A stretch of 64,000 nucleotides of DNA, taken from contig OX359191.1 of assembly GCA_947172415.1 (NCBI GenBank), positions 6,984,130-7,048,129 on the forward strand, given 5' to 3'. Source of the stretch: Chondrosia reniformis. Lineage: Eukaryota > Porifera > Demospongiae > Chondrillida > Chondrillidae. Shown one piece after another: positions 8,964 to 43,580 of the stretch (position 1 is the stretch's first letter; each line of letters begins with the position of its first letter). Position numbers and translations under genes: made by a program. The notes below the pieces were generated by a model. It was not told where the DNA came from and did not search any database. It saw nothing but the letters and a program-made list of their open reading frames with translations.

Positions 8964-11462
8964 GTATGCACGCAGACACAATATTCAATGGTATTCAATC
9001 ATTTCACTCAGTGCATGTATTGTGTAAACAGAAAAAAATAGCCTATAATTACAGGTATGTAGTTTCAACTTGTAGAGTCGGATTTTACAATGAGCAGTTT
9101 CTGTTTTCTTTTCACTTTCTGACCAGGTGTACAATGAGACAATCAGAGATTTGTTGCTCCCATCAGGGACCCTGAAAATGAGGGACGACAGAGGAACCTT
9201 GGTAGTCAATGGGCTCTCATTACACAAGGTACACACTTTACTAGTATCGATTGCACATAGATACATATGTGTGCTACCTCCATCCTCTCCCCCTCCTCCA
9301 CCCCCAGCCTCACAATGCTAATGAGCTGTGTTCCAAGTGCACATCCACCAGAAGCCTCGTACAGCTGGTCTGAGCACTGAAGTGAGAACTGCAAAGCTGT
9401 CCCTGATTGATCTTGCTGGATCAGAGAGGGCTACAGTCACATCTAACAAGGGAGCTCGCATGAGAGAAGAAACTAATATTAACAGATCTTTGCTGGCACT
9501 GGGAAATTGTATCAATGCACTGGCAAACAAAAAGGTGGGCATTTCTCAAGAATTTATAATAGCAACATACGTATGTATGTATGATGTAGCAATCATTTGA
9601 GTGATATTTGTATTTAATTTCTTTGCAGAACAAAACTGGTTATGTACCTTACAGAGAAAGTAAATTAACCAGACTCCTGAAGGATTCACTAGGAGGATCA
9701 TGTCAAACTGTCATGATTGCATGCCAATATTAGGTATTACATATGTACGTACACACTAATACGTATACACATGGAAATACATATAGTTTACGTGTATATG
9801 AGAATTCATACATACTTAAATATGGCATTAATGAAAATACAATTTAAGTCATATACGTAAACATGTTTACATATTAAAATCCTTTATTATAATAATTAGG
9901 ATTATAAATGTAAATCATTTATTGCACATTTAATCAGACATGAATTGTTTTGTATATCAGTGTTGTTGCTTTGTTTGTGTTTAATGTAGTCCATCAGCAC
10001 TGACATTTGATGATACTTATAATACTCTGAAATATACAGACAGAGCAAAACAGATCAAGTCACAAGTAGGAAATCTTAACTGTGTACATCAACACAACAT
10101 TGTGCAAGTCAATATTTTACTTCCATGTTCTTCTACTCTCCCTCCCTCTACCACTCAGTTGGTTAGGAATGTGGTGAGTGCGGACTATCACCTGTCAAAG
10201 TACAAGGAGATCGTGGAGGACCTTCAGAAGGAGATCACTCATCTCAAATCAAAGCTGGCAAGTCATGGTCCCATTAAAGGAGCATTTGATAAAGTGGAGG
10301 CAGCCAGATTAAAGGCATTGATATCAGATGTATATGGTTGCCCTGGCAATGTACGCAAGTAGCTGGCAGAGGCAGAGTGTAGTGGTGAACTGTTGAATGC
10401 AAAAAGAAAGAGAAGAGAGATTCTGTATAGAAGATGTGAAGCATTTAATATATCACAGGAAAGAAGAGATAATGTACGTATGTGTATTATATATGTGTGT
10501 ATACATATTTCTTGGTGTTATATATATATGTATTATGTTTAATTCTTTAGCTACAAACTACATACATATGTACATATATACATATATAATTGTTTAATTT
10601 TACATTTTTAAGTATACATGTGACATATTTTACTTGTACATACGTATATAGATGAAGTGTCGAATAGTTGATCTAGAGGAAAAGATAAGAGCCATTGCTG
10701 CGCAGAAGGAAGATCTTAGTAAACATCTCCATGACAACCAGGATGAAATTTATAAGATGCAAAATGAAATTAAAGCAAGTCTGGCTAAGCGATTTGATTC
10801 CTTTGCACTGAGTGAGTATGTATCCATGGTAACTGAAGCTGAGAAACATCGCGTGGAAGGAGCTCACAGTAGAGTTCAAGTGAGATCTCTGAGAAAACTG
10901 GTGAAGCAGCTGCAGCAAGATATGGACAGGAGCAACAGGTTAGCTTGGAGATACAGTATAGTGTAGTTACTAACCTTACTATATGTATGCATGTACATGC
11001 AGTATGTGTGTATATAGATTCACACAGTATACAGCTAAATAATGTGATGTTTCCATTTCTCTTGCAGATTACTAGCTTGCACAATTGGGTTTATCCAGGA
11101 TGTGGAACCGTGCTTCAGTCAGAACACCATTCTCCTCAACAAGTATCGTGCTCTGGTGAGGCAGCTTCAAAGTGAGAAGGGAGTAGCATGGGCGGATGAG
11201 GACCAGGAGGCCCATGAGAGCACGTTTAGATCATCAGTCCAGTTGGATTCCCCTCCTGCACTCTCAAAGACCACATCCCCCACATCACCTGCAGCTGGTG
11301 ACTCAAAGACCACTCCCCCTACATCACCCAGTAATTCAGAGGGTTCTCCCCTTTCTTCACCTAATTTACATTTGAAGAGTACAGCTGTAAGAAGCAATAC
11401 CACTCCATATCCACTAGCTTCAAAGCAGGCTGTACCTCCTAGTGAAATGTCAACCATAGCTC

Positions 11463-11620
11463 CTCCTAGCTCAGTGTCAAATCTACCGCAACCTCCTCCT
11501 AGCTCAGTGTCAAATCTACCGCAACCTCCTCCTAGCTCAGTGTCAAGTCTACTGCAACCTCCTCCTAGCTCAGTGTCAAATCTACCGCAACCTCCTCCTA
11601 GCTCAGTGTCAAATCTACCA
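11463..11620. repeat. 33-bp coding minisatellite in kinesin tail, about 5 copies
   Basis: Tandem copies of CCTCCTAGCTCAGTGTCAAA plus 13 more bases encode SSVSNLPQPPP repeats. Copy number differs between paralogues: about 5 here, 1 at 27290-27330, about 9 at 40948-41215. Confidence 0.85.
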
Positions 11621-12374
11621 TGCACAACCTCCTACTAGTATTATGCCACCTCCCTCCAGCGATGTCCTCTGTACACCAGTAAGGGTGACAGCACTCACCT
11701 CTTTCAGCTCCTTCACGCCCTCTCCAGCTGTGGCACGCCTCCTCAGCTCAATGAAGACCATGGGCCACTCCTCCTTACGTAAGAAGGTCCCTGAAGCAGT
11801 TAGACCTGTCATCCAACCATTTGAGGAGAGGCAGAGAAGAGATGGCATCACACCGGTACCAATTGGAAGCAGAAGTAACACTCAAAGGAAGACCACATTA
11901 TGCAACAGTGAACACTCTTTGAAGTCAAACACAGTCTCCAGTCCTGATGATCTACCAAATAGTAGAATGGACCTTAGAAGCATGCCCATCCCAAAGCTGG
12001 CATTTGAGGACAACTTTTGCTCTCCAGATCCTCCTCCTTGTAAATCAGGGGACCCACTGAATGAGACATTTACTGTGAATGAACACAACAGTGGAGTTCT
12101 AAAGAGGTCACATGACACTCATTCAGCTAGAAGAACACCCAAGAAACTTTTAAAGGTCTTAGGTATGGATTATTTAATTGTCATTTTAATGTTGTCAGTA
12201 TCTTTTTCACCAGAGCTTCGATCAGAATTTACCATCTGCCATTTATACATATTAATAAATTATACATAGTTACCAATACATTATAATTAGATTATGTAGA
12301 TATAATATGTGTTACTCTTATATGCATATGTAAAAATACCACTTTCCTACATGTTATGCCTTACCAATAAATTA

Positions 12375-12480
12375 AAAAGCCTAGCCTGTTTAGAGCTTTG
12401 GATGAGGATACAGGAGACTTCGCTTCGTTTCTGAGAATTCCACCCTTCACCAGTGACCCTATACGTTAGTCAACGGGACT
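12375..12480 (+). repeat. Dispersed repeat family, member 1
   Basis: A segment with GAGCTTTGGATGAGGATACA followed by GAATTCCACCCTTCACCA recurs at about 28000-28115, 29313-29430, 41955-42175 and 43078-43195 on the same strand. It is inverted at about 35030-35245. It sits in the intron between the last two large kinesin exons and in the convergent intergenic gap. Its nature (lost exon or SINE/MITE-like repeat) is unresolved. Confidence 0.5.
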
Positions 12481-14019
12481 GGTAGATCTGGAGGTAAATC
12501 ACGCGAAGGAGCGTAGTGGTTGTTGCTACCTTCAGCCATGTTAGCTGGTCTCCGTTCATTGTCAGTTTCCTGTGAAAGCGATATCCTGTTATTTTGCATG
12601 CTATTGCAAAAGTTCAGTGTCCTGTACATCGGAGCAAACTGTGTTTGCCCCATAGTGTACTGGTTGTCTGCAATGTTGACTGCTTTCAACTTTGTTGTCA
12701 AGGTTGCAAAGATTCCCTATATACTCTTTGTCATTCCTTGGTCATGCCAGTACATATGTATACGTATACATATAATAATAATAATAATTGCATATACATG
12801 CACGATACTCTTTCTCTTGGCTTGTTTTATGTACGAACATACATACAATATCATATGTATGATACATTTCTCTTGTTGTAGGAGACAAACCTCCAGAAAG
12901 AGTAAAGTCAAAACAACCAAACTACTTAACTCTAACTAAAGCTGCTGCTTCAAAGAGATATGTCACTAAATCCTCTAGATATTCAAAACGGTTTGTATCA
13001 CAGTATATATGTATGTACGTATATGATAGGTTACTGTTGGCTGTCTTTAGGTATATTGTAACTCATTAATATTATTGTTATAGCCTTATATGCATGTAGT
13101 ACAGTCAATATAGAATAATGTCTACATGTATATGATTAATAAAACATTTCAGTATTTCCTGTATATATGGTTGACATCAAAAGAATGAATAGTTCTCCAA
13201 TATAAGACTTAATTATTAACAATAATCTGACAGTGTATAGTTTTGGATTAGGATATTCTTTCTTTAATAATGTACCTACTGTAGAGGTCACTTGGACAAA
13301 GAGAACTGTTACTCAATCTCATCTTCATTTCCAAGCAACAGAAGAACAGTTACAGGACATTGACTAAGAGATGTTACATATATATACATACAAAAATGAA
13401 TTTTAAATAAATGTATTATATATAGTCTTTAGATGATTGTTTATAATACTTTCTTTTGTGTTGTACTACTATTCTATTGTGTATATATAATTAAAGAATT
13501 TGAGATATCAATGTTTCGATGATTAGCTTGAAAACATGTACTGTAGCTATAGTGCGTACGTACGTATATATATATATATTATACCCATTCAAGTATAGAG
13601 AAACTGACTGCAATTTATACATAATTGCAAAAGATCCATGTACGTAGATAAACTATTATCTTTTGTGTACATACGTATATATATAATACATGAAATGCCA
13701 TGTAATTATATATTAAATGATTTATAAACTAATTCAGTTAATACACCAATTTTCTTATACATACACATCTACATTTATATTTTAGAATCTAGAGTAAAAA
13801 GAGGTTACTCCTTTACATTTCTTCTTTAATGGGCCATCCGTTTACTATTCTTCTATATATTATACACTGGGCCTGATAGCAATTTGTAAAGTGTTGCATG
13901 TGAAGATTGCAATACAACTTCCACTGTTTAGAATCAACCATAATCTTGTTCATTATACAATGATACAACACTTGATACAATTTATACATCATGATCATAC
14001 ACTAATATGTATAACCAAA

Positions 14020-17000
14020 TTAAATGTTCCCTCTTGATCCAAACCCTCCTTCAGAAATAAGGTACTTCACTACATGTTTGTGTCCTTTCCTCCTAGCCAC
14101 TGTCAAGCAGTCCTCTCCACTTGTATTAACATCAAACTTCCTTCTTCCAAATAAGGGCAATAAGTACTTGATAACTTGGAGATGGCCCTTAAGACAGGCC
14201 AAGTGTAGAGCACTGTATCCATACTACAAGATAATCATAATTACGAATATAAACATGAAAACAAACATATACAGTATGTTTTGGGTCAGTTGTCCAGACA
14301 GGACTTGCAATCGATAATCGGTAAAAAGGTTATCGCTGCATGGTTATGTCATTCTAGTGGGAAAGTTTGTTCAAATGATAGTCGTGAGTGCTAACTAATT
14401 ACCTATTTCAATGTCCGGTTTGGACAACCGACCCAAAAAGTACTGTATAAGTATAGATATGGTACACTTGTAGTTAATATGTAAATCAACATTATCTACT
14501 TCAAATTGTTCACTAGACTATGGGGACAGCATATACTACTAATCATCCAAAATGGAGTGGAATTTACTTGTTTACATAATATTGCTGATCATGTGACCTC
14601 CAGCCAATGGGATCCATCTGAGAAGGTCACATGACTGACACGTTTTCTTAGTTAATTCAGCCAAATAAGAGTTGGAACAAACAGGCGACCTTCCAATCAG
14701 GTCAAGGAATACCTCATCCACCTGTATGTAGTGATTATTATAGAGTGACCTAAACATTTGTGCTGATTCAAAGGCACCAGTGCCACTATTCAGTACCTAT
14801 ATATAGGAAATTATTTTAGCATATCAGTGAGAAGACCTAACTTAAAGACAGTAGTCACAGAGACAAGCTAGTATTAGAAACTAGTGTTTAGTTGTAAAAT
14901 TGTGTCACTGCAAGCTTTGTAAGATTATGAATTTAAAATACGTATTCCCTTATCAAAATAATGTATTTCAATTTTGTATCATCTCTGTGATGTATATAGT
15001 TCAAATGTTGTTGCTCTACTAATTCTGGTCTAACTATTACATAATAATCAATAATAATATTTTATGTGCTTTTGAAGCATCCATTTGATTATAATTGAAA
15101 TTAAAGATTAAGAAAGTCCTTTGCAAAGTCCCATCAGGCTACACCCTTCTGAACTAAATAAATAAACAGTCATATAGAATTAACGAAAACTAAAAGATTT
15201 TCAAATTGATTTGTTCTACAAATGTCTATTATCTAATCAAATCAAAAAAATGACTTTCTCTTATAAATCATCATATGTGACCTTCCACAGTAATCCTGTA
15301 AGTTATATAATTATACAAAGATACTTTTGCAGCGTCAATACAGCATTCACAATTAATATCTACCAACACAAGTTGAATAGCTTAATTCTTACCTATGTAT
15401 GTACACTATTTCTTTATACTCAATGACTGTGGTATATGTACTATCCAACACTGACTACAACAGCACTTACTTGTTATACAGAGAAGTGTCTTACCTTGTT
15501 CTTGTGGTACACATTAGCTTTACGTTCCTCTGTCAGATGTTGTACTACTTGTAACTGACCATATTGACAGGCTAGCAGTAGAGCTGTGGTACCATACTAA
15601 AGTAAGAAATATGTAAATTCATTGAAATCAGTTATAACACTTCAATCACTGCACTTCAGACAAGTGCTAAACAGATAGATACGTAGTTCACAATATTATA
15701 CTGTTAAACTACATATTAACATAAACTACTTAAATTTACATATAACATAAATGCTTAAAGTCATAAGTAACTACATTACATGATCAGTCATGGCATGATC
15801 ATTTATGGGATATCTTACAAATGCTACATACAAACTTTTATATCATCACTAGTTGCTATTTCTATGATATATTACACCAAATAACAGTGTCAACCATATG
15901 ATATATCAACTTCAAATGTACAGTTCTATATACTAAAAGATTTATTTAATGTATAGCTTTAATTAATCAACACTTTTACAAGTTAATACTTACATTGCTT
16001 TCCTCTTCTAAATTAACACCATATCTATCAATTAAGCAAATGATGATGGTTTGTTTACCATACATAGCTGCCTTCATTAGAGGAGTCACACCTTCCTGTG
16101 TACATAAGAAGGGAAATATTTGAGATTGGAAACTTCAACGTATAACAAGTTATAGTTAACATCATTTATTCCAAACCAAACACATTATTATATACAATAT
16201 ACACTTTATAGGTACAAACATTGTTACAAATCCTTATACACTATTGTACTTCTAAAATTATAATTAGTACATATAACTAGTACATACAACTAGTACATAC
16301 AACTAGAACTGTTTATGAGCATTTTGTATCTCACTCTTCTTTCTTAGTTGTTTTCATAATAAAATATTCTATCAGTGATTATCATCTAATACAGATACCC
16401 TCAAATAAACCTACAAGTTCTCACAAAGTCAATTAATAATACCAGCGGATCCTATTTTTAAGAATATATATATATACGTATGTACTGGTGGATATAGCAA
16501 ATACTTAACATGTAATCACACTATTGTAGTTCACCATTCCTTATACAATTACCCCAGTTACCTCACTATAGCAATATAAGAGACACTAACTCATTTCTTA
16601 CCTTATTCCTTTCTTCAGGAGAGAACTTCAGTTCTTCAACAATGAGGCTCACCATTACAGGATTGTCTTGTATATTTGTACTGGCAAAGTGAATTAGACT
16701 GTCTCCATATACTTCAACATCCTGGAATTTACCAGCTTCTATGAACTTTGGTAGTAGGAACTCCAGCAAATCCACATTGCCACTAAAGGCAGACCAGTGT
16801 AAGGCATTTACATTATCCTGGATTAGGAAGCATAAGACAGGAGCTTAAAGGTTTTTGATAAAGACGAGATATAGACATTTAGAAACATACTACAGTAGAA
16901 TCTCATTATAACGAAATTGCTTATAGTGAATGTCTCAGTATAGTGAAGTACTTTGTTAGCCCCAGCAAAAGTTGTATACTATTATATTCATTCAATATAG

Positions 17001-20000
17001 TATATATTCAATATAAGGAACTAATTTGGTCCCCTTTGAGCTTCACTATAATGAGATTCCACTGTATATACCATACACTTGCACTATATCAACTCCTAAA
17101 CAGTATGTTTTATATGCAAATTAGTGAGAATTTGTGTCCAAACACTGGACACTAATATACTCAACATTACAGGGATATCATGGATTACTTGAATAACAAT
17201 GTAAAGATTTAGTGAAATAGGATTAGCTATATAAAAAGATTAGTGAGTCATTTCTATACAATGTTTTAACAAACACATCCTTGTTTATCTATACTTTCAA
17301 GGGGACTAGTGGTATATGCCAGATAAATGGAATATTTGATTACAATTATGTCAATTATGCAATGTCTGTTCAAAGGCTAAGTGACAAAAGTGGGAGATTA
17401 AGTAAATATTTAAAGAAGATAACACAGTCTTCTGTGGAACTTTGGAGGATTTGCCATCTCGGGTGATATACTAGTTTGCCATTTGCTGAGACATTGGTCT
17501 CACAAGTACTAAGATAAGACTTCATTGCTAAACAATTCCTCATCTACTTATCAGAGAGTATTGTAATACCAATATTAACTAATACATACTTTAAAGAACC
17601 GGACTTAAAGCAATAATGATCTATACATAAATTAACAAGCTCCCTGTCACTAGTAAAGCTAGGTTGCCTGTAGTGATGACAGATCAGCTCACTCTCCCCC
17701 AGCTGCTGTGTTCTAAGAGGTGAGTAGACTAGCACCTCTGACTACAGAGCAGTTAAGGTTTTGTTTACTGTAATTACTTAAAAGGAACTTGTAGTTACTC
17801 TCTACAGTTGTAGTTAATATACGTACACATTAGAGGCAACTTTAACTTACACTTGTAGAATAAATAATTATGTTGTATAAATCTAATGTCACGTTCAGGA
17901 CACATATAGTATATACTATATACACTTATGGAAAATGCATTTTTCACTTCAAATCATTATATAGTCTTTATTATAACCATTTCCACTGTAACAGTTATTT
18001 TGATTGCCTTCATGTGATAAATCCCTTTTCAAAAACAGAGACTACCGTAAATATGCCATGTTGTTCAATAATATACAGAACCATAAATTATATACTGTAT
18101 TGCCATTGCGTAGACTATAATGAAGTCATTGATATACAGAGCTAACAGAAGTACAAACTGATCACATGAATTAACTGTATGGTTAATAGCTACAGTGTTT
18201 AGAAGGACATTAACATGTGTTTAGGTTGTGAAAATTAGGTAATCAAAGAGAATTAATTGTTTATTTACTAGTTCTCTATATCTAATAAGTAAACATACTA
18301 TTCATACACTTCCTATAATACCACACTTAACTGACTAGAACTATATAGAATGATATAACTGATACTGTAGAATTGAAATCACTGTCCAACTAATGATAAT
18401 TAAATGTACATTTTAAACACACCAGTTACACAATTAATTGCAACCAATGCCAATTATAATTGTAATCAATATAACTCACAATATCCACCAACACAAGTTG
18501 AATCCCTTAACTCTTACCTACACTATCTTTCATACCTAATGACTACTATCCAAACACTTGCTACAACAATACTTACTTGTTATACAGAGAAGTGTCTTAC
18601 CTTGTTCTTGTGGTACACATTAGCTTTACGTTCCACTGTCAGATGTTGTACTACTTGTAACTGACCTTCCAGACAGGCTAGCAGTAGAGCTGTGGTACCA
18701 TCCTAAAGTAAGAAATATGTAAACTCATTAAAATCAGTTATAAACCTACAATCATTGAAATTCATACAAGTGCTATACTGATATATAGTTCACAATATTA
18801 TGTTGTTAAAACATAAAGTACTTAAATTTATATATAAAAATGTTAAAATCACAAGTAACTACATTACATGATCAGCCATGGCCCTCGCTATCTTTCAAGT
18901 GCTACATACAAACTTTTATATCATCACTAGTTGATATTTCTATGATATGTTACACCAACTAACAGAGTCAACCGTATGGTATATCAACTTCACATGTACT
19001 AGTAAGATTCAAGGGCAGTTATTTAATGTATATAGCTTTAATAAATACAACTATTACATATTAATACTCACATTGCTTTCCTCTTCTAATTTGACACAAT
19101 GTGTATCAATTAAGCAACTAATGATGGCTTGCTTACCATACATGGCTGCCTTCATTAGAGGAGTTGCACCTCCCTGTGTACATAAGAAGGGAAATATTTG
19201 AGATTGGAAACTTCAACATACAACAAGTTATAGCTAACATCATTTAATTCCAAAGCCAAACACACATTCATTTATTGTTTACAATATACACTTTATTGAT
19301 ATAAACATTGTTACAGATCCTTATACACACCATTGTACTTCTAAAATTATAACTAGTACTGTACATACAATTAGTACATACAACTAGTACATACAACTAG
19401 TACATACAACTAGTACATACAACTAGTACATACAACTAGTACATACAACTAGTACATACAACTAGTACATACAACTAGTACATACAACTAGTACATGCAA
19501 ATAGTAGTTATGAGTTTTGTTGCATTAAGAGATGATTGGCATGTAAAGATTTAAAGGAACATTGAAATTTAAAACTCGTAATCTTTTACAGTATGTTTAA
19601 CTCCTATACTTGAAATAACCCCCCACCTTTAACTCAAAATAATGAAGCGTCTAAGTATGATTTAACAATTATAGCTTCGAAATGTCAGGGACTGGAATAA
19701 TGACCAATGAGAAATTAGAGGATCCCTTTGCTGACTTGGATGAAGACAAATCCACAATGGACAAGGACCAACATGCATGTAATTAACTTAGTTATCATTT
19801 GTTATGTCTCACTCTTCTTTCTTAGTTGTTTTTATAATAAAATATTCTATCAGTGATTATCATCTAATACAGAAGCAATGATAACCTCAAATAAACCTAC
19901 AAGTTCTAACAAAGTCAAGATTAAAAATACCCATACATCCTATATAAGTATATATGTTATACATATGTATGTACTGGTGGATGTAGCAAATACTTAACAT

Positions 20001-23000
20001 GTAATCACACTACTGTAGTTTACCATTCCTTATACAATTACCCCAGTTACCTCACTATAGCAATATAAGAGACACTAACTCATTTCTTACCTTATTCCTT
20101 TCTTCAGGAGAGAACTTCAGTTCTTCAACAATGTGGCTCACCATTGCAGGATTGTCTTGTTCATTTCTACTGGCATAGTGAATTATACTGTCTCCATATA
20201 CATCAACATCATGGAGTTTACCAGCTTCTATGAACTTTGGTAGTAGGAACTTCAGTAAATCCACATTGCCACTACAGGCAGACCAGTGTAAGGCATTTCC
20301 ATCATACTGGATTAGGAAGCATAAGACAGGAGCTTAAAGGTTTTTGACAAAGAAGTGATAAAGACATTCAGAAACATATACTATATACTATACACTTGCA
20401 CTATACCAACTCCTAAACAGTATTTTTTTACATGTAAATTAGGGAGAATTTGTGTCCAAACACTGGACACTAATATACTCAACGTTACAGGGATATCATG
20501 GATACTTGATTAACAATGGCCCTTATGACAGGCAAAGTGTGGAGCACTGTTTCCATACTACAAGATACACATACGTAATTATGGATTTCAACATGAAAAC
20601 AAACATACAAGTGTAGCAATGGTACACTTGTAGTTAATATGTAAATCAGCACTAGTATCTAATTCAAATTGTTCACTAGACTATGGGGATGGCATATACT
20701 ACTAATCATCCAAAATGGAGTGGAATTTATATGTTTACATAATATTGCTGATCATGTGACCTTCTGATCAAGTCAATAGTGGCACTGGTGCCTTTGAATC
20801 AGCACAAATGTTTAGGTTGGTAGACGTTGTGCTCTACCACCTGTGGTCCAAATATTACATAATAATCAATACATTGCTATCAATGCAAATGTGCCACTCA
20901 AACTGTAAACCAATCAATCAATATTCCACCCCATACTAACAACAAATCTACTTCAGAGAAATGACATATATTGTACTTTTGAAGAAAATTATTTGAACTA
21001 TACATATATACAGTTACATGCACTAACACTCATCATGAAAAAGATTACAGAGAGAGAGTTAATGACACAACTCCAAATGCTAAGTGACCAAAGTCTTATC
21101 TTTGTCGGGAGACTGAAGTTAAGTATCATTGAAAGACAACAAATGACAAGTCTATTTTAATGTAGCAGTCACTTTACTGGTACTCTACTGGTAAGGAAAC
21201 CTCAATTGTTTAACTGCAATAGTAATTATTGGCAGGTTTGCTTCTCAAAATCCATTACATGCTTTATTGATGAGCAAAACAGAATATAGTCTGCATGCAT
21301 TCAACTGAGTTGTGTGCCTCAACCTTCTCCCTAAGTAACAAATCTGGTATCTACCAACACAAGTTGTATCCCTTAACACTTACCTACACTGTATCTCTAT
21401 ACCCAATAAGTATATGTATACTATCCTTAAAGTATAAGTATATGTATACTATCCGTATACTGGATGGATGGATGGATGGATATTGATGCTTTAGGATTGA
21501 CGTTCCCCTATTATTTTTCCCTAGGGTTTAGATCTTAAAGTTCCCCTATTATTATCCCCTAGGGTTTAGATCTTAAAGTTCCCCTATTATTTTTCCCTAG
21601 GGTTTAGATCTTAAAGTTCCCCTATTATTTTCCCCTAGGGTTTAGATCTTAAAGTTCCCCTATTATTTTCCCCTAGGGTTTAGATCTTAAAGTTCCCCTA
21701 TTATTTTCCCCTAGGGTTTAGATCTTAAAGTTCCCATATTATTTTTCCCTAGGGTTTAGATCTTAAAGTTCCCCTATTATTTTTCCCTAGGGTTTAGATC
21801 TTAAAGTTCCCCTATTATTTTTCCCTAGGGTTTAAGTGTTAGTGACTCCTGATCAGGTAAATGCTTTTAAACTTGCAGTCTTTTCTCATTATATGCACTT
21901 TCAGTATGATTCAGTTTATAATCTAATATATAATGTCAGAATTAATGAAGATATTTCAATTAATAATAATATTCAAATTATCTTTAATCCATAGTGTTTA
22001 CAAGTTTCAAATATTTTTATAAAACAACCTACGTATGAGTTATTTATTGTAAAATATATGGGTTAAACTTATACATATATACGTATATAGTACAATAAAT
22101 ATAGCTAAAGAGTAGAAATTAATATTATTTCCATGTGTACTTTACGTAGCACAATACACTCACGGCATCTTCTTCTTCCACATTATGCCCTGCATCCAAC
22201 AAGAGCTTCAAGACCTCCATATCTCCACTTCTACCAGCTTGTAGCAAAGACTATTAGTTTGGGATCAAATAAAGAATGATATTTTATTTGAATCATGCAT
22301 TGAATGTTGATTATACATAATATAAGTCTTATATACAATATGTATGCATATGAATGTACACAAATACAGTCATGGCTGTTTAGTATGGCCTTTGATAATC
22401 CAGTTCCCTCGATATCAGGATGACTTTTCAGGGAAACAGGTCTTAATAGTATAATTATTTTGTACATGAGAAACCAGCCCTTAGTTTACCTTTTGTATAT
22501 CTACATATACGAATCAATCACACATATGGTGATCTGTATATATAAAAAATGTACACTTTCAATTCCTTATATGGTCAATATTTATTGTAATGGATGGGAA
22601 TGGAATAAGAACTGTACATCTGCAAAACCTACTCCTTTCTTCTTCTTTCTGGACAGAGATCTTTCCTTCTTTGTAGCATAGTCCCAAAGTTCCTTCAACT
22701 GTAAATGTAGCTTTCCAAACATGTTTGAGACAATTTCAGAGTTAACTCTCACAGCTTTAATCACAGCATCACAAGTATATGTCTCCTTCAGTTCCTAGAA
22801 GAGGTGGAAAAGAAATTAAAATATTCTACTAGCAGGACACAAAGCCTAAATGTACAGTTTTAGAAATGCATTTGTCACATGTTGGTATATTGTATGCATA
22901 AACGCATTATTTCTATATAGACTACCTCAATACTGCCTTCTTCTGACTTCAGACTTTTCTTCAGATTAATCATCATTTTCAAATCTGCCAAATCTTCTGA

Positions 23001-28376: not shown

Positions 28377-28407
<31 letters not shown>

Positions 28408-28910: not shown

Positions 28911-29811
28911 ATAAGAGATGTTACATATATACATAGAAAAATGAATTTTAAATAAATGTATTATATATAGTCTTTAGATGATTGTTTATAATACTTTCTT
29001 TTGTGTTGTACTATTGTTCTATTGTGTATAATTAAAGAATTTGAGATATCAATGTTTCGATGATTAGCTTGAAAACATGTACTATAGCTACCCATTCAAG
29101 TATAAACAATTGCAAATTGACTAAAATACAAATGCAATTTATATGTAACTGCAAAAGATCTACTTAGATATATACATACAGGGTAAGTTGCCATGCAATA
29201 TTATTTATGAAATTAATGATTTATAAATTACTTCATGATTGATATCAGCATGAATAATTAATACCCCAATTTTCTTACATGTACATATATATACATCTAC
29301 TTTGGAGTTTAAAAGGCCTATAGAGAACTAAACCTATAGGCCTATGAGAGAGCTTTGCAATTGGATGAGGGCAAGAGGTTAACGTTTCTCCTATTTCTAC
29401 TTCTCCACTAGGCCAGACAGCTGTTTGTATGTGTGTGAAGATTGCAATACAACTTCACTGTTTAGAATCAACCATAATCTTGTTCATTATACAATGATAC
29501 AACACTTGATACAATTATACATCATGATCATACACTAATATGTATAGCTAAATTAAATGTTCCCTCTTCATTCAAACTCTCCTTCAGAAATAAGGTACTT
29601 CACTACATCTTTGCGTCCTTCCCTCCTAGCCAGTGTCAAGCAGTCGTCTCCATATGTATTAACATCAAACTTCCTTCTTCCAAATAAGGGCAATAAGTAC
29701 TTGACAACTTGGAGATGGCCATTAAGACAGGCAAAGTGTAGAGCACTGTATCCATACTACAAGATAATCACAATTATGAATATAAACATGAAAACAAACA
29801 TATACAGTATG

Positions 29812-29974
29812 TTTTGGGTCGGTTGTCCAGACAGGACTTGCAATCGATAATCAGTAAAAAGGTTTATCGCTGTATGGTTATGTTGTTCTAGTGGGAAAGT
29901 TTGTTCAAATGGTAGTCGTGAGTGCTAAACAATTACCAATTTCAATGTCCGGTAGGGACAACCGACCCAAAAAG
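29812..29974. mobile_element. Small MITE, copy in unit 2/3 border
   Basis: Same TTTGGGTCGGTTGTCC inverted-repeat element as at 14279-14439, at the orthologous intron position. Confidence 0.6.
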
Positions 29975-32460
29975 TACTGTATAAGTATAGATATGGTGCA
30001 CTTGCAGTTAATATGTAAATCAGGACCAGTATATCTACTTCAAATTGTTCACTAGACTATGGGGACGGCATATACTACTAATCATCTAAAATGGAGTGGA
30101 ATTTATATGTTTACATAATAGTGCTGATCATGTTTATCTACAGCCAATGGGATGTATCTGAGAAGGTCACATGACTGACACTTTTTTCTTAGTTAATTCA
30201 ACCAAATAAGAGTTGGAACAAACAAGTGACCTTCCAATCAAGTCAGTAGTGGCACTGGTGGCATTGAATCAGCACAAATGTTTAGGTTGGTAGACATTAT
30301 GCTCTACCACCTGTGGTCTAAATATTACATAACAATCACTACATATGGGTACATTAGGTATTCAGTACATATGGGAAATCATTTTAGCATATCAGTGAGG
30401 AGATCTAACTTAAAGACAGTAGTCATAGAGACAAGCTAGTATAAGAAACTAGTGCTTAGTTGTAAAATTGTGTGACTGCAAGTTATGCAAGATTATGTAC
30501 AGTATTAAAAATAGTTATTTCAATTTTGCATCATCTCTCATCATTCTGGTCTAACTGTTACATAATAATCAATACATTGCTATCAATGCAAATGTGCCTC
30601 TCAAACTGTAAACCAAACAAGCAATATTCCACCCCACACTAACAACAGATCTACTTTAGAGAAATGACAAATATTAATATGTGCTTTTGAAGCATCCAGC
30701 ATAAAGAATAGCATGTGATGTATCCCATGATTATTATTGAAATTAGATTAAGAAAGTCCTTTGCAAAGTCCCATCAGGCTACACCCTTCTGAACTAAATA
30801 AATAAACTCATATATAGAATTAACAAAAACTAAAGATACATTTTGACTAAGTTCTACAAATGTCTGTTACCTAATTAAACTATAATAAATTGATTCTCTC
30901 TTATAAATCATATGTGACCTTCCACAGTAAACAGGGTAATAATAAGTAATAAGTTATAAAATTATAAAGATACTTTTGCAGCGTCAACACAATGTTCACA
31001 ATTAATATCTACCAACACAATTTGAATCACTTAGCTCTTAACTTTATACTTAATGACTATGGTACGTATATGTACTATCCAAACACTTGCTACAACAACA
31101 CTTACTTTTTACACAGGATATCTTACCTTGTTTTTGTGGTACACATTAGCTTTACCTTCCTCTGTCAGATGTTGTACTACTTGTAACTGACCTTCCCAAC
31201 AGGCTAGCAGTAGAGCTGTGTTACCATTCTAAAGTAAGAAATATGTAAACTCATTGAAATCAGTTTTAACACTTCAATCACTTCAGACAAGTGATACACA
31301 GATAGATAGTTCACAATTATTATGTTGTTAAACTACGTACATATTAACATAAACTACTTACATTTACATTTAACAAAAATGTTAAACGTCTAACTACATT
31401 ACATGATCAGCCATGGCTTAACCATCATATCAACTTTGCATTTACTAACAGACTTATTGCTTATTATACGTAGCTTAAATTAATCAACATTTTACAACTA
31501 TTACATATTAATACTCACATTGCTCTCCTCTTCTAATTTGACAAGATGTGTATCAATTAAGCAACTGATGATGACTTGCTTACCATAACTAGCTGCTCTC
31601 ATTAGAGGAGTTGCACCATCCTGTGTACATAAGAAGGGAAATATTTGAGATTGGAAACTTCAGCATACAACAAGTTATAGTTAACATCATTTAATTCCAA
31701 AGCCAACTACACATTATTTTATTTTATTTTATTGTTACTATTACAATATACACTTTATTGATTAACATTGTTGCAGATCCTTATACACATCATTGTACTT
31801 CAATGTAATACAATTAGTACATACAACTAGTAGGTATGAGTTTCGTATTGTTACTATTACAAATACTTAATATGTAACCACACTATTTTAGTTCACCATT
31901 CCTTATACAATTACCTTAGTTACCTCACTATAGCAATATAAGAGACACTAACTCATTTCTTACCTTACTCCTTTCTTCAGGAGAGAACTTCAGTTCTTCA
32001 ACAATGTGGCTCACCATTGCAGGATTGCATGTCTTGTTTATTTCTACTGGCATAGTGAATTATACTGTCTCCATATACATCAACATCATGGAGTTTACCA
32101 GCTTTTATGAACTTTGGTAGTAGGAACTTCAGTAAATCCACATTGCCACTAAAGGCAGACCAGTGTAAGGCATTTCCATCATACTGGATTAGGAAGCATA
32201 AGACAGGAACTTAAAGGTTTTTGACAAAGAAGTGATATAGACATTCAGAAACATACTATATAACATACACTTGCACTTGAACTGTATGTTGTATGTATGT
32301 GCAACATTGAGAGCATACACTGGATACAAATATACTCAACATTAGAAGGATATCATGGATTAATTCATGACTATATATTTTCCACTGAGTGACACTGCGT
32401 TAGTTACTCAAAAATTAGTTGAACTATACATATATACAGTTACATGCACTAACACTCATC

Positions 32461-33665: not shown

Positions 33666-34186
33666 TAAGTGTTAGTGACTCCTGATCAGGTAAATACCTT
33701 AAACTTGCAGTCTTTTCTCATTTTATGCACTTTCAGTATATAATTCATTTTTATAATCTATACCATGTTAGAATTAATGAAGATATTTCAATTAATAATA
33801 TATTCAAATTATCTATAATCTATAGTGTTTACAAGTTTCAAATATTTTTACAAAACATGAGTTATTTATTGTACAATATATGGGTTAAACTTATACGTAT
33901 ATACGTATATAGTACAATAAGTATAGCTAAGGAGTAGAAATTAATATTATTTCCATGATTACTTTATGTAGCACAGTACACTCACTGCATTTTCTTCTTC
34001 CACGTTATGCCCTGCATCCAACAGGAGCTTCAAGACCTCCAAATCTCCACTTCTACCAGCTTGTAGCAAAGACTATTAGTTTGGGATCAAGTAAAGAATG
34101 ATATTCTATCTGAATCATGAATTGAATGTAGATTATACATAATATAAGTCTTATATACAATATGTATGTATGCATGTACACAAATA

Positions 34187-34616
34187 CAGTCATGGCTGTT
34201 TAGTATGGCCTTTAATAATCCAGTTCCCTCAATATCAGGCTGACATTTCAGGGAAACGGGTTCTAATAGTATAATTTTGTACGTGAGAAACCAGCCCTTG
34301 ATTTATCTTTTGTATATCTACGTATACGAAATTGACAAGTTAATCTAATGAATGTTAGCCGACCTACTGCCTAACAATTTTGGTCTGCAAAGTATGCTGA
34401 TTTAGTATGTGCACTGGAAATGTACCAGTCAGTGATAAAGTATTACTTTTAAATTAGTGTGTGTTTTGTACTAAGAAAGAGCGCTTTGTTAGTTTATTCA
34501 TACAATAATCTTACAATCATGGTTATGTCATGGTGTCAGGGGTGACATTATATAGACTTTCTTAATCCAGCAATGTTTGGAGAAACCAATGCAGTCGGAT
34601 TGAACAGTCACGACTG
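34187..34616. mobile_element. Tc1/mariner-type MITE, unit 3 copy
   Basis: Same CAGTCATGGCTG ends and TA flanks as at 4947-5400, in the orthologous intron. Confidence 0.55.
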
Positions 34617-35024
34617 TATTACATATAATCAATCAATCACACACATGGTGATCTGTATATATCTATAACAAATGCACACTTTCAATTCATTATATGGTCA
34701 ATATTTATTGTAATGGAAGGGAATGCAATAAGTACTGTACATCTGCAAAACCTACTCCTTTCTTCTTTCTGGATAGTGATATTTCCTTCTTTGTAGCATA
34801 GTCCCAAAGTTCCTTCAACTGTAAAAGTAGCTTTCCAAACTTGCTTGAGACAATTTCATAGTTAACTGTCACAGCTTTAATCACAGCATCACAAGTATAT
34901 GTCTCCTTCAGTTCCTAGAAAAGGTAGAAAAGAAATTAAAATATTCTGCTAGCTGAACATAAAGCCTAAATGTACAGTTTTAGAAATGCATTTGTCACAT
35001 GTTGGTATGTATGTATGTATGCCT

Positions 35025-35245
35025 AGGATTCACAGAAGATCAAGATAAAGAAAAAGACAAAGACTCCCAGGATCACTGATGAAGGGTGGAATTACCAGAA
35101 ACGGCTGTCTGACCCAGTGGAGAAGAAGACGAAAGAAGGGAAAAGAAGGAAGAAAAGACTCCTGTATCTTCATCCAAAGTTCTCTTCAGGTTTAGTTCCC
35201 CTATAGGCTCTTTTACAGAATAGGCATAGCATGTAGGAAAATGGT
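35025..35245 (-). repeat. Inverted copy of a kinesin-intron segment inside gene 3
   Basis: The reverse complement matches 41955-42175 (GATACAGGAGTCTT, CTTCTTTTCC, GACAGCCGTTTCTGG, CTTGATCTTCTGTGAATCCT). It is present only in unit 3, just downstream (3' side) of coiled-coil exon 35286-35462. Either a mobile repeat or a local inverted transposition. Confidence 0.6.
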
Positions 35246-38200: not shown

Positions 38201-38467
38201 CAGCTGTTCATCAAAGGTTTGTGTATCAGTTTATTATCTAGTGCAAATGATCGTAAGCTGTAGGTTTTCAACTCACCCCTTTCGGCCATCTTATATAAGC
38301 GTGCCACTCCCTTTTAGACTATATGTCTATATAATCTATGTAAACACGAGAGATCTATATATAGAAGAACAGCAAGACATAAGTGGATAGATATATGGAT
38401 AGACCTTACTGCGTTGAAAATATCTTTTTACTGTGTACAGAGATTGTCAGAGATTGCTGCACTATAC

Positions 38468-38702
38468 CCAATGGAAGCCTGTATGGCAACTTCATAGAGC
38501 TGCCTGAAATAAACAATATTCAGTGGTAAGTCACTTAGAATAGTGAAGTGTAAATATGCATTACAGACTTGCCTGTGATTCACTTCACTCAGTCTCTGAC
38601 AAAGAGATTTTCCAACTTGATAGGCCTTTGATCTGTGTACTATGGTTGCCATGACATCAACAGGTACTCCATTCAGTAGTATGTCCATCTTTTTGGTGAT
38701 AT
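38468..38702 (-). pseudogene. GUF1: GUF1/LepA C-terminal fragment, unit 3
   Basis: Two exons. 38573-38702 encodes [20 protein letters not shown] then [16 protein letters not shown]. 38468-38503 encodes [13 protein letters not shown]. This matches the LepA/GUF1 C-terminal region (MDILLNG, HR-KA, RQ-FE-AIQA-IG). The join is best explained by a GC-AG intron (AG|GCAAGT at 38572, TTTCAG at 38504), which restores the family's RQ motif. The upstream GTPase domain and the final C-terminus are absent, so it is a partial duplicate rather than a gene. The parent gene is not in the window. Confidence 0.7.
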
Positions 38703-38916
38703 CTTTAGAGTTAAAGAAAGCATACAGGCTTCTTAACTAAAAGCTGAAAAGGATTAGTTATACCTTAAATATGGATTATGCCAATTCTCTATAAGTGTAA
38801 ATGCATGTATTTTGGAAACAGGAAAAATAGCCTAGACTTACATGTATGTAGTTTCAACTTATAGAGTTGGATTTTACAATGAGCAGTTCCTGTTCCCTTT
38901 TCCATACTCTGATCAG

Positions 38917-41900
38917 GTGTACAATGAGACAATCAGAGATTTACACAGTTAAGATTTCTTACTGGTCTGAGCACTGAAGTGAGAACTGCAAAGCTGTCCC
39001 TGATTGATCTTGCTGGATCAGAGAGGGCTACGGTCACATGTAACAAGGGAGCTTGCATGAGAGAAGGAGCCAATATTAACAGATCTTTGCTGGCACTGGG
39101 AAATTTTATCAATGCACTGGCAAAAAAAAAGGTGGGCATTTCTCAAGAATATATAATAGCAACATACGTATGTATGTATGATGTAGCAATCATTTGAGTG
39201 ATATTTGTATTTAATTTCTTTGCAGAACAAAACTGGTTATGTACGTACCTTACAGAGAAAGTAAATTAACCAGACTCCTGAAGGATTCACTAGGAGGATC
39301 ATGTCAAACTGTCATGATTGCCAATATTAGGTATATAATTGTACGTACGTACTAATACGTAATACACACATGGTAATACATAGGTACGTACATTGGTATT
39401 TGAGAATACATACATAATAAGACATTTAATGTTATGCACTTTTAAATTATATTTTTTTTCAATTATTGCACATTTAATCAGACATGAATTGTTTTGTACT
39501 GTTTATCAATGTTGTTGATTGTTTGTGTTTAATATAGTCCATCAGCACTGACCTTTGATGATACTTATAATACTCTGAAATATGCAGACAGAGCAAAACA
39601 GATCAAGTCACAAGTAAGAAATCTTAACTGTGTACATCAACACAACATTGTGCACCTCAATATTTTTCCTTCCATGTTCTTCTACTCTCCCTCTACCACT
39701 CAGTTGGTTAGGAATGTGGTGAGCGTGGACTATCACCTGTCAAAGTACAAGGAGATCGTGGAGGACCTTCAGAAGGAGATCACTCATCTCAAATCAAAGC
39801 TGGCAACTCATGGTCCAATTAAAGGAGCGTTTGATAAAGTAGAGGCAGCCAGACTGAAGGCATTGATATCAGATGTGTATGGTTGCCATGGCAATGTACG
39901 CAAGGAGCTGGCAGAGGCTGAGTGTAGTGTTGAACTGTTGAATGCAAAAAGAAAGAGAAGAGAGATTCTGTATAGAAGATGTGAAACATTTAATATATCA
40001 CAGGAAAGAAGAGATAATGTACGTATGTATGTGTTTAAAGCTACATAAAATGTACGTACGTACCTACGTATGTATGTGTATATCCTGTGTATATACATAC
40101 ATATTTCGTTACATTTAAAGCTACATAATGTACATATGCGTATATGTTATGTTTCTTTAGCTACAAACTACATACATATGTACATATATACGTATATAAT
40201 TGTTTAAATTTACATTAAATATGTATATTTATATTTAAGTATACATGTGGCATGTTTTTCTTGTACATACGTATATAGATGAAGTGTCGAATAGTTGATC
40301 TAGAGGAAAAGATAAGAGCCATTGCTGCACAGAAGGAGGATCTTAGTAAACATCTCCATGACAACCAGGATGAAATTTATAAGATGCAAAATGAAGTTAA
40401 AGCAAGTCTGGCTAAGCGATCTGATTCCTTGGCACTGAGTGAGTATGTTTCCATGGTAACTGAAGCTGAGAAACATCGTGTGGAAGGAGCTCACAGTAGA
40501 GTTCAAGTGAGATCTCTGAGAAAACTGGTGAAGCAGCTGCAGCAAGATATAGACAGGAGCAACAGGTTAGCTTGGAGATACAGTATATACTAACCTTACT
40601 ATATGTATATATGTACATACCAGTATGTATGTGTAGGTGCACACAGTATACAGCTAAATAATGTGATGTTTCCATTTCTCTTGCAGATTACTAGCTTGCA
40701 CAATTGGGTTTATCCAGGATGTGGAACCGTGCTTCAGTCAGAACACCATTCTCCTCAACAAGTATCGTGCTCTGGTGAGGCTCTGGTGAGGCAGCTTCAA
40801 AGTGAGAAGGGAGTAGCATAGGCAGATGAGGACCAGGAGGCCCATGAGAGCATGTTTAGATCATCAGTCCAGTTGAATTCCCCTCCTGCACTCTCAAAGA
40901 CCACATCTGCTTCAAAGCAGGCTGTACCTCCTAGTGAAATATCAACTCCTCCTAGCTCAGTGTCAAATCTACCACAACCTCCTCCTAGCTCAGTGTCAAA
41001 TCTACCGCAACCTCCTGCTAGCTCAGTGTCAAATCTACCACAACCTCCTCCTAGCTCAGTGTCAAATCTACCACAACCTCCTACTAGCTCAGTGTCAAAT
41101 CTACCACAACCTCCTCCTAGCTCAGTGTCAAATCTACCACAACCTCCTCCTAGCTCAGTGTCAAATCTACCGCAACCTCCTCCTAGCTCAGTGTCAAATC
41201 AACCTAGGCCTCCTGCTAGTATTATGCCACCTCCCTCCAGCAGTGTCCTCTGTACACCAGTAAGGGTGACAGCGCTCACCTCTTTCAGCTCCTTCACGCC
41301 CTCTCCAGCTGTGGCACGCCTCCTCAGCTCAATGAAGACCATGGGCCACTCCTCCTTGCATAAGAAGGTCCCTGAAGCAGTTAGACCTGTCATCCAACCA
41401 TTTGAGGAGAAGCAGAGAAGAAATGGCATCACACCAATTGGAAACAAAAGTAACACTCAAAGGAAGACCACATTACGCAACAGTGAACGCTCTTTGAGGT
41501 CAAACACAGTCTCCAGTCCTGATGATCTACCAAATAGTAGAATGGACCTTAGAAGCATGCCCATCCCAAAGCTGGCATTTGAGGACAACTTTTGCTCTCC
41601 AGATCCTCCTCCTTGTAAGTCAGGGGACCCGCTGAATGAGACATTTACTGTGAATGAACACAAAAGTGGAGTTCTAAAGAGGTCACATGACACTCATTCA
41701 GCTAGAAGGACACCCAAGAATCACCAAAAACTTTTAAAGGTCTTAGGTATGGATTATTTAATTGTCATTTTAATGTTGTCCGTACCCTTTTCAACAGAGC
41801 TTCAATCAGAAAATGTTGAAACCCGTTTAACATCTACTACATTTATACATAATAAATTATACGTATGTAGTTACCATTACATTAGATATGTAGTACGTAG

Positions 41901-42660
41901 ATATATATAATATGTTACCATTATATGCATATGTATAAATAATCTAATACACCACTTTCTTACATGTTATGCCTATTCTTAAAAATACATTAATAAGCCT
42001 ATAGGGAGCTAAACCTGGTGAGAGCTTTGGATGAGGATACAGGAGTCTTCTCTTCTTCCTTCTTTTGTACCGCTGGGCCAGACAGCTCTTTCTGAGAATT
42101 CCACCTTTCACCACCAATGACCCTAGGATTCTTTGTCATTTCTTGATCTTTTGTGAATCCTTGGCCATGCCAGTATGTATATATGTACATATAATAATAA
42201 TAATAATAATTGCATATGTATGAAACATTTCTCTTGTTGTAGGAGACAAACCTCCAGAAAGAGTAAAGTCAAAACAACCAAACTACTTAACTCTAACTAA
42301 AGCTGCTGCTTCAAAGAGATATGTCACTAAATCCTCTAGATATTCAAAACGGTTTGTATCACAGTACGTATATATGTACAGTATTACTGTTGGTTGTCTT
42401 TAGGTATATGTATGTAATTATAACTCATTAATATTATAGCTCACTATATATAAGCCTTATATTATAAGGTATACATATACATATACACATACACATACAA
42501 TACATATGTAGTATAGTCAATGTAGAATAATATCTGCATGATGATGATGCATTTCTTTAATAATGTACGTACCTACTGTAGAGGTCACTTGGACAAAGAG
42601 AACTGTTACTCAATCTCATCTTCATTTTCAAGCAACAGAAGAACAGTTACAGGACATTGA
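38917..42660 (+). pseudogene. Kinesin-8-like pseudogene, copy 3
   Basis: Exons: 38917 onward (VYNETIRDL, then a deletion running into the switch II exon, to 39131), 39226-39330, 39538-39613, 39714-40018, 40279-40565, 40687-41746, 42243-42351, 42592-42660; polyA signal at 42701. The deletion at about 38940-38960 removes switch I and an acceptor. GTAC is duplicated at 39241-39248, shifting frame. An 11-bp duplication (CTCTGGTGAGG) at about 40770-40790 shifts frame, and TGG became TAG at about 40818. The neck/coiled-coil exon 39714-40018 is fully open, whereas copy 1 has a stop there. The tail has about nine 11-residue SSVSNLPQPPP repeats. P-loop half missing. Confidence 0.82.
40948..41215. repeat. 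33-bp coding minisatellite, about 9 copies
   Basis: Same SSVSNLPQPPP-coding repeat as at 11463-11620. All units here are in one frame, which gives long open frames on the sense strand. Confidence 0.88.
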
Positions 42661-43580
42661 ATAGGAGATGTTACATATATACATACAAAAATGAATTTTA
42701 AATAAATATATTATATATAGTCTTTAGATGATTGTTTATAATGCTTTCTTTTGTGTTGTTCTATTGTTCTATTGTGTATATATAATTAAAGAATTTGAGA
42801 TATCAATGTTTCGATGATTAGCTTGAAAACATGTACTATACGTAGCTACCCATTCAAGTATAGACAATTGCAAATTGACTAAAATACAAATGCAATTTAT
42901 ATGTAATTGCAAAAGATCTACTTAGATATATACATACAGGATAAGTTGCCATGCAATATTATTTATGAAATTAATGATTTATAAATTACTTCATGATCGA
43001 TATCAGCATGAATAATTAATATCCCAATTTCTTACATGTACATATATATACATCTATATACTTCAGAGTTTAAAAGGCCTATAGAGAACTAAACCTAGGC
43101 CTATGAGAGCTTTGCAATTGGATGAGGATATATGCAAGAGGTTAACGTTTCTCCTATTTCTACTTCTCCAATAGGCCAGACATGTACAGCTGTTTGTATG
43201 TGTCATGAAGATTGCAATACAACTTCACTGTTTAGAATCAACCATAATCTTGTTCATTATACAATGATACAACACTTGATACAATTATACATCATGATCA
43301 TACACTAATATATATAACCAAATTAAATGTTCCCTCTTCATTCAAACCCTCCTTCAGAAATAAGGTACTTCACTACATCTTTGTGTCCTTCCCTCCTAGC
43401 CAGTGTCAAGCAGTCCTCTCCACTTGTATTAACATCAAACTTCCTTCTTCCAAATAAGGGCAATAAATACTTGACAACTTGGAGATGGCCATTAAGACAG
43501 GCAAAGTGTAGAGCACTGTATCCATACTACAAGATAATCACAATTATGAATATAAACATGAAAACAAACATATACAGTAT

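Follow-up and report, generated by a model that had tools for sequence, protein, structure and literature searches.

TACGTA insertions between paralogues in Chondrosia reniformis as candidate excision scars of CG-ended, TA-inserting elements

The locus and its 4-bp differences

The window is a 64,000-nucleotide stretch of the Chondrosia reniformis genome (contig OX359191.1, positions 6,984,130 to 7,048,129, forward strand). It contains paralogous copies, putative exons and a MITE. The reading frames at 9718 and 39242 encode what we take to be a kinesin motor. A preliminary description of this DNA had named nine 4-bp gains between paralogues, and comparison of the window paralogues recovers each of them as a 4-bp indel. 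TACGTA differences are present at 39242, 42566, 42839, 31334 and 5082, and TGCATG or CATGCA differences are present at 9718, 11619, 32026 and 19774. The comparison also yields further TACG differences at 15680, 17820, 31062 and 46853. The TACG sites are as follows, in window coordinates and without an assigned strand.

39242..39247: TACGTA in a putative exon; the paralogue near 9647 has TA; read as a scar
42566..42571: TACGTA, present in 1 of 3 window places compared; read as a scar
42839..42844: TACGTA, compared with a single partner; read as a scar
31334..31339: TACGTA, apparently common to several paralogues; gain or loss
5082..5091: TACGTACGTA; the paralogue has one TACG fewer; scar or repeat expansion
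15680..15685: TACGTA, absent in 3 window paralogues; new
17820..17825: TACGTA difference; new
31063..31068: TACGTA, left-aligned as GTAC at 31062; absent in 2 window paralogues; new
46853..46858: TACGTA difference; new

The word "gain" holds for some of the nine named sites. The insertions at 32026, 42566 and 11619 are the minority state among the copies compared. At 31334 a gain is not established because the insertion appears to be common to a group of 8 clustered places. The sites at 5082, 9718, 39242 and 42839 have one partner each and are differences whose direction a single pair cannot tell.

Length and sequence specificity

The preliminary description had proposed that 4-bp insertions between paralogues be sorted by sequence, and this was done on 242 kb. 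The count covers indels of up to 12 bp with well-aligned flanks, and the majority of copies come from two tandem clusters. Sites were merged by flank similarity, and the resulting 64 are sites rather than proven independent events. TA is duplicated in 39 of these 64 4-bp sites, compared to 15 of 97 sites of 3, 5 or 6 bp (Fisher P=3e-9). With pure-AT inserts removed, the counts are 27/48 and 9/78 (P=1e-7). CG is the middle of the insertion, giving TA-CG-TA, in 18 of the 39 TA-duplicating sites (P=2e-19), against a background in which CG follows 2.4% of TAs. The +4 pattern of TA, two terminal bases and TA is found here as a mutation class only, at 39 of 64 sites, 18 of them with CG. TACG is the minority state at several sites, being found in one or two copies and missing from a larger number.

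The same spectrum bears on a transposon-independent origin, in which TACG, like TATA or TACA, is inserted by slippage or templated repair where pyrimidines and purines alternate, and (TACG)n microsatellites grow from it. Many of the 64 sites belong to other alternating classes (ATAT 12, ACAT 9). (TACG)4 is counted 110 times on one strand and 106 on the other, where its reversed control reaches 25 and 19. Near-identical element copies differ, by eye, in their number of TACG repeats. However, TA duplication is specific to a length of 4 bp, the duplicated pair is TA in all 18 TACG gain sites, and CpG is otherwise depleted in the window (O/E 0.40). Moreover, rot is 2 or 3 at 15 of the 18 ACGT-class sites, and therefore no full TACG unit was available for slippage at these. 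At the other 3, where rot is 4 or more, the gain could be repeat slippage, which counts against an excision origin there. We consider local mutation unlikely as the general explanation.

Abundance of TACGTA

TACGTA is 8.05x over-represented in the window, the top ratio among hexamers with at least 20 copies. Two rarer hexamers have a higher ratio, CGGCCG (4 copies) and CGTACG (12 copies). Among the 16 palindromes of the form NNCGNN, no other with at least 5 copies exceeds 1.8x in the window. Other loci, 64.5 kb in total, show a 6.1x over-representation, and genome-wide there are 115,557 occurrences of TACGTA compared to 13,092 of ATCGAT, a control of the same composition. The excess is best read as the product of scars numerous enough to raise the frequency of TACGTA throughout the genome.

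The MITE and its family

The MITE had been described as having TA flanks and CG at both ends, and both hold.

48927..49355: CG-ended MITE, 429 bp, no strand; ends CGGTAGGCGTC...GACGTCTATCG, TA on both sides
48917..48926: TACGTACGTA, no strand, adjoining the left end of the MITE; of 15 unfilled paralogous sites, 10 read TACGTA and 2 TA

Members of the family end in CGGTAG...CTACCG. The 30 loci examined represent 20 distinct sites, of which 18 have a TA at each flank; the two others, L027 and L036, have a diverged or missing end, and L037, one of the 18, lacks CG at its left end. CG is present at both ends in 20 of the 30 loci. The 10 loci without CG at one or both ends weigh against the excision origin; five of these have CA or TG, which CpG decay would explain. 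The 18 TA-flanked sites prefer R-TA-Y (R at 17/18, Y at 16/18). The flanks of the 18 TACG gain sites share this preference weakly (9/18 compared to a background of 34%, P=0.13), another point against derivation from such elements.

The window MITE site can be aligned in 16 copies, of which 1 is filled, 10 read TACGTA, 2 TA, 2 TATGTA and 1 otherwise. A second MITE site, on C4, is reached by 15 of the 30 loci. Seven copies are filled and 8 are empty with a single TA, and the absence of TACGTA from all 15 speaks against scar formation at this site. No site compared offers a filled copy and a scarred copy whose order can be read.

Three of the 18 TA-flanked target sites touch TACGTACGTA (P=3e-5, or P=5e-4 allowing for the R-TA-Y preference). 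The suggestion that reiteration builds (TACG)n runs gains from this a result that is suggestive only. The same contact, together with TACGTA in 10 of the 15 unfilled copies of the window site, is what would be expected if TACGTA were a preferred element target or a functional motif under selection and no scar at all. A preference for a target does not create TACGTA, though; TACG is confined to one or two copies and missing from more at several sites, and the insertion at 39242 shifts a reading frame. This explanation is hardly credible.

The preliminary description had pointed to the MITE as the source of the scars. Its CG ends and TA target fit this role, but the element alone looks too small a source, with approximately 40 matched places as a lower bound (40 of 58 candidates scored). 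The wider group of CG-ended elements is a better scar source than the named MITE alone. The 18-base end pattern of the MITE, used to look for an autonomous partner, gave 53 places and no such partner among them; the candidates came instead from the transposases. A search of 222 kb for other CG-ended families returned, besides CGGTAG, only a TACG-rich match that was taken as false.

CG-ended elements and their transposases

The genome contains 277 CG-ended termini of the form TACGGTANNNGTCAMAA, and the reversed control pattern 3 times. If the CG may be any dinucleotide, the counts are 443 and 99, so CG accounts for approximately 80% of the excess. Ends were paired on C1-C4, the part covered by the termini listed (100 of the 277), and the 94 ends there include 30 convergent pairs. 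With 150 of 253 candidates scored for PF13358 (DDE_3), at least 41 matches lie on C1-C4, and there the domain falls within at least 4 CG-end pairs. Three of these have open frames of 340-356 aa, and the frame of the fourth is broken. The three open ones are elements of approximately 3.2 kb, two of them in this gene cluster.

C3:7095419-7098618: CG-ended element, open transposase of 348 aa between the CG ends
C3:7165439-7168691: CG-ended element, open transposase of 340 aa; coordinates include TA
C1:2100396-2103554: CG-ended element, open transposase of 356 aa; coordinates include TA

The first of these has 21-bp ends that are identical on both sides. Two window paralogues, near 20434 and 46636, are empty at its site with a single TA, and a third, near 17115, reads CA instead. 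By their sequence, the CG-ended elements carry the marks of Tc1/mariner (IS630) transposons, namely TA duplication, TIRs and a predicted Tc1-type DDE transposase.

A 338-aa transposase protein is encoded at L097 (C10), and its own CG ends were not located. CGTATRAG was considered as the end of the elements at L097-L100 and rejected, as the copies share sequence beyond it. TIR scans of 20 transposase stretches of 1.8 kb each gave no true ends, because elements with located ends are approximately 3.2 kb long.

Excision as the source of TA-CG-TA

TA-CG-TA is very probably the Tc1-type +4 excision scar of CG-ended, TA-inserting elements. Elements with termini CGGTANNNGTCA(A/C)AA insert at TA and duplicate it. 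At excision, the transposase cut would leave two terminal bases, CG, and end joining would then produce TA-CG-TA. Because CG is its own reverse complement, the scar would be identical whichever element end supplies it. Mobilisation is most probably the work of the DDE_3 transposases encoded in the CG-ended elements of approximately 3.2 kb. These may also mobilise the window MITE, as its terminal letters suggest; clear likeness between the two is limited to the first 15 bases (93% of 15). Further TACG units may come from repeated use of one TA.

On balance, we lean towards a broader proposal, in which the genome carries approximately 100,000 +4 scars that are inherited and stem from a single CG-ended Tc1/mariner group (TACGTA being nearly 9x as frequent as the control word). 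These scars would seed (TACG)n by reuse of the TA, germline excisions would mostly be end-joined, and scars would outlast the elements. So many scars beside a few hundred recognisable CG ends would need turnover to have gone on for a long time, which is a difficulty for the excision origin of TA-CG-TA. CAGT-ended elements are also present (by eye, among the long inserts listed), yet TA-CA-TA or TA-TG-TA makes up only 5 of the 39 TA-duplicating 4-bp sites, a further point against that origin.

TG-CA-TG and CA-TG-CA insertions

The preliminary description had read every duplicated dinucleotide as an excision scar. This is well supported for TA-CG-TA, where the TA duplication is specific to 4 bp, the middle is CG, CG-ended elements exist and TACGTA is in excess, but not for TG-CA-TG.

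9718..9723: TG-CA-TG 4-bp insertion, no strand; putative exon
11619..11624: CA-TG-CA 4-bp insertion, no strand; reading frame shifted; in 1 of 3 window places compared
32026..32031: TG-CA-TG 4-bp insertion; minus-strand reading frame broken; in 1 of 25 aligned copies
19772..19779: CATGCATG, 4-bp tandem difference, no strand; clustered with 7 places

The insertion at 11619 turns one frame into two, which align with residues 2-118 and 125-320 of an intact 352-aa paralogue. The insertion at 32026 breaks a frame that stays open in the four other window copies used for comparison. If another element targets TG or CA, its excision would account for TG becoming TGCATG, or CA becoming CATGCA, three times (9718, 11619 and 32026), alongside a CATG duplication at 19772, and the insertion at 32026 is private to one copy. 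However, TG/CA duplication has no length specificity (7/64 at 4 bp compared to 11/97 at 3, 5 and 6 bp, P=1), and the over-representation of TGCATG is just 1.4x in the window, with 1.38x elsewhere in the other loci. An inverted-repeat scan of 242 kb returned 6 TG-flanked and 9 CA-flanked matches with no matching element family, and only two single ones end in CA or TG. Such an element is very unlikely. The TG-CA-TG insertions are real and fall outside the Tc1-type explanation.

Implications and known systems

If the proposed origin of TA-CG-TA is true, every excision of the CG-ended group leaves the same scar, CG being palindromic, and past transposition would therefore be countable from sequence alone. 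The scars would provide a clock of excision per substitution, at approximately 1 TACG difference per 345 mismatches in the window alignments (9 compared to 3,102), and a test of the germline repair pathway. They would also supply gene clusters with 4-bp frameshift mutations and show concretely how a tetranucleotide microsatellite can be born.

Among the closest known systems is Tc1 of C. elegans, a Tc1/mariner (IS630) element with a TA target, a DDE transposase and a +4 bp scar, which is described as the typical somatic scar (78%; PMC13148408). Unlike Tc1, the terminal dinucleotide here is CG, and the scars, approximately 100,000 if so read, are heritable. In the open-licence literature, no title or abstract opening found concerns TACGTA scars, which does not imply their absence from print. 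The fish elements ZB (Tc1/mariner; PMC7913693) and Passer (pogo; PMC9976928) are described in the passages on them as active, with TA targets and footprints of 0-3 bp and 0-4 bp, respectively. They are other elements in other hosts, and those passages do not mention a genome-wide scar load. Stowaway MITEs of grasses are likewise small non-autonomous Tc1/mariner-type elements with a TA target. The CTCCCTC TIR consensus, printed for Mariner in a rice study (PMC4423477), differs from the CGGTAG...CTACCG ends found here. Stowaway footprints are described as TIR fragments of 1-4 bp and of several kinds, whereas TACGTA is uniform. In the Triticeae beta-amylase gene, a Stowaway insertion is reported to adjoin an older footprint (PMC1925063).

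Four-base insertions in the window

The genome is composed of 117.4 Mb in 15 contigs, and the window (contig C3, positions 6984130-7048129) lies inside a tandem cluster in which one 400-bp piece has 32 matches from C3:6944814 to C3:7242069. The data were the window, 113 loci of ~1 to 3.6 kb each, and genome-wide pattern counts. A merged 242-kb set included the window, the MITE flanks, a cluster on contig C4, and 20 stretches of the C3 cluster.

The preliminary description named nine sites of the form TA-CG-TA (TA becoming TACGTA) or TG-CA-TG (TG becoming TGCATG, or CA becoming CATGCA) and proposed cut-and-paste excision as the origin of both. All nine were found again as true 4-bp differences between window paralogues. 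Across 48,570 aligned columns, the distinct indel places in the window number 56 at 4 bp, 43 at 3 bp, and 29 at 5 bp. Grouped by rotation class, that is, regardless of starting letter, the 4-bp places are ACGT (the class of TACG gains) 9, ATAT 9, ACAT 8, ATGC 6, and 24 for the rest combined. After quality filters, the 242-kb set holds 64 sites at 4 bp, 44 at 3 bp, and 25 at 5 bp; the 4-bp sites include ACGT 18, ATAT 12, ACAT 9, and ATGC 5.

An element that inserts at TA and leaves two bases is expected to duplicate TA at 4-bp indels and not at other lengths. In the 242-kb set, TA is duplicated at 39/64 sites of 4 bp, 6/44 of 3 bp, 5/25 of 5 bp, and 4/28 of 6 bp (Fisher P=3e-9). Excluding pure-AT inserts leaves 27/48 at 4 bp versus 9/78 at other lengths (P=1e-7). 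At 8 bp the count is 8/23, with TACG in only one of those eight; some of these may be two successive steps. The middle pair of the 39 TA-duplicating 4-bp sites is CG in 18, TA in 11, CA/TG in five, CC/GG in two, and others in three, and CG directly follows 2.4% of window TA dinucleotides. TG/CA duplication has no 4-bp preference in the same set (7/64 versus 11/97). Because TA duplication is length-specific and TG/CA duplication is not, the TA-CG-TA form stands, whereas the TG-CA-TG sites are four real insertions without an explanation, and their reading as excision scars is unsupported.

CG-ended elements and excision

TA-CG-TA is very probably the excision scar of CG-ended cut-and-paste elements. 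An element of this kind with an open transposase is found in the same cluster as the window:

C3:7095419-7098618, CG-ended element with a transposase match at C3:7097343; CGGTACGCGTCAAAAGTAAGG at each end, flanked by TA

Two window paralogues of its site, near 20434 and 46636, are empty with one TA, and a third, near 17115, has CA instead. The first 19 bases of this end, including TA, occur 83 times in the genome at up to 2 mismatches (32 exact), many of them facing each other across a few hundred bases. A looser pattern, TACGGTANNNGTCAMAA, occurs 277 times versus 3 for its reversal; with its CG replaced by any dinucleotide, the counts are 443 versus 99. The 94 CG ends on contigs C1-C4 include 30 convergent pairs, which span 388 to 6,053 bp. 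Tc1-type transposases (PF13358) have at least 124 matches in the genome, about 30 of them, as counted by eye, in stop-free open frames of at least 336 aa. Of 41 DDE_3 matches considered for C1-C4, a set that may miss some, eight lie within 4 kb of a CG end located on the expected side. Four of the 41 lie inside a CG-end pair; three of these have open frames (348, 340, and 356 aa), and the fourth frame is broken. These end counts, convergent pairs, and enclosed frames indicate an abundant, partly intact group that keeps CG as its terminal dinucleotide.

In an excerpt of PMC2170065, Tc1/mariner excision is described with 5' cuts inside the element and 3' cuts at its ends. Such cuts on a CG-ended element would leave TA-CG-TA whichever end's bases remain. 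The portion of PMC13148408 consulted gives a +4 insertion as the typical Tc1 scar in worm soma and homologous recombination as the means by which such breaks are mended in the worm germline. Heritable scars at the density seen here would thus suggest end joining in the germline of this genome. The CG-ended elements work like Tc1/mariner and, on the features tested, belong there; what is unusual is the scar load.

Several results weigh against excision scars as the source of TA-CG-TA. The flanks of the gains agree weakly with insertion-site flanks (9/18 versus 34%, P=0.13), and CAGT-ended elements are present, yet TA-CA-TA or TA-TG-TA scars are apparently few. Slippage is a competing source. 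It may account for 3/18 TACG sites and, surely, for growth in some of the long (TACG)n tracts.

The MITE family and its insertion sites

The preliminary description proposed the MITE at 48927-49355 (429 bp), which has CG ends, as a source of the scars. The family of this MITE bears out the CG ends and TA flanks, and the source is probably larger than that MITE alone. The window MITE matches at least about 40 places in the genome. The 30 loci read represent 20 distinct target sites, with TA on both sides at 18. CG is at both ends in 20/30 loci; in the remaining ten, at least one end is CA, TG, or CT, has diverged, or is missing.

At a MITE site on C4, 7/15 copies are filled and 8/15 are empty. 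Every empty copy has a single TA and none a TACGTA scar (0/8), which counts against the excision reading. The site of the window MITE was aligned in 25 copies, nine of which are a unit type lacking the site. By eye, the remaining 16 comprise one filled copy with TACGTACGTA at its left, 10 with TACGTA, two with TA (loci L075 and L080), two with TATGTA, and one that differs. Filled, TACGTA, and TA states thus occur at one base position, and the MITE may have entered an older scar. Among the sites compared, none is filled in one copy and scarred in another with the order resolved.

TACGTACGTA adjoins 3/18 TA-flanked MITE sites (the window, L012, and L017), versus 0.34% of window TAs (P=3e-5) and 0.9% of TAs with a preceding purine and a following pyrimidine (P=5e-4). 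This fits repeated use of one site or a target preference.

Other TA-flanked inserts, with CAGT-type ends, are present in some units and absent from others:

14269-14446, ~178 bp
29802-29980, ~178 bp
16889-17065, ~172 bp

Abundance of TACGTA

TACGTA is the most over-represented window hexamer among those with at least 20 copies, with 75 observed and 9.3 expected from dinucleotides. Rarer listed hexamers with higher ratios are CGGCCG (4 copies) and CGTACG (12 copies). Among the 16 NNCGNN palindromes in the window, TACGTA stands at 8.05x, the next two, CGCGCG and GCCGGC, have 1 and 4 copies, and the others are below 1.8x. GCTAGC (3.3x) and TAGCTA (2.9x) are also over-represented there. In 64.5 kb of other loci, picked for elements, TACGTA is 6.1x, behind CGATCG among words with at least 12 copies.

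Whole-genome counts are 115,557 for TACGTA, 71,100 for ATGCAT, 48,094 for TAGCTA, and 13,092 for ATCGAT, which has the same composition. With ATCGAT as background, the surplus is estimated at ~102,000, or 0.87 per kb, and it shrinks if ATGCAT or TAGCTA is the background. The window alignments hold 9 TACG places per 3,102 mismatches. A simple gain/loss balance, with loss as a change in any of six letters, gives ~0.5 TACGTA per kb, the same order as observed; each mismatch was scored once per pair and each place a single time, with no correction for the rapid decay of CpG. A tandem repeat at C1:172014-172699, with TACGTA every 34 bases over ~680 bases, is a small addition to the genome count.

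Reading frames

Four of the insertions fall in reading frames:

11619, splits a frame that is unbroken in the paralogue at 40852-41910
32026, breaks a frame that is open in the other four window copies compared
9718 and 39242, cause shifts in frames taken to be kinesin-like

Three of these four insertions have the TG-CA-TG form, so most of the clear exon damage does not trace to the CG-ended group.

Additional features of the window are as follows:

564-2768 (+), open frame matching RVT_1, RVP, and Retrotrans_gag (reverse transcriptase, protease, gag), presumably Gypsy-like
19361-19506, tandem repeat with a 13-bp period (GTACATACAACTA); diverged relatives occur on contig C11 and in other units
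50491-50883, ~390 bp repeat of a CACCA-like pentamer, with several frames open
53043-53906 and 61267-61989, pair of similar open frames, the first matching the trypsin-like peptidase domain PF13365
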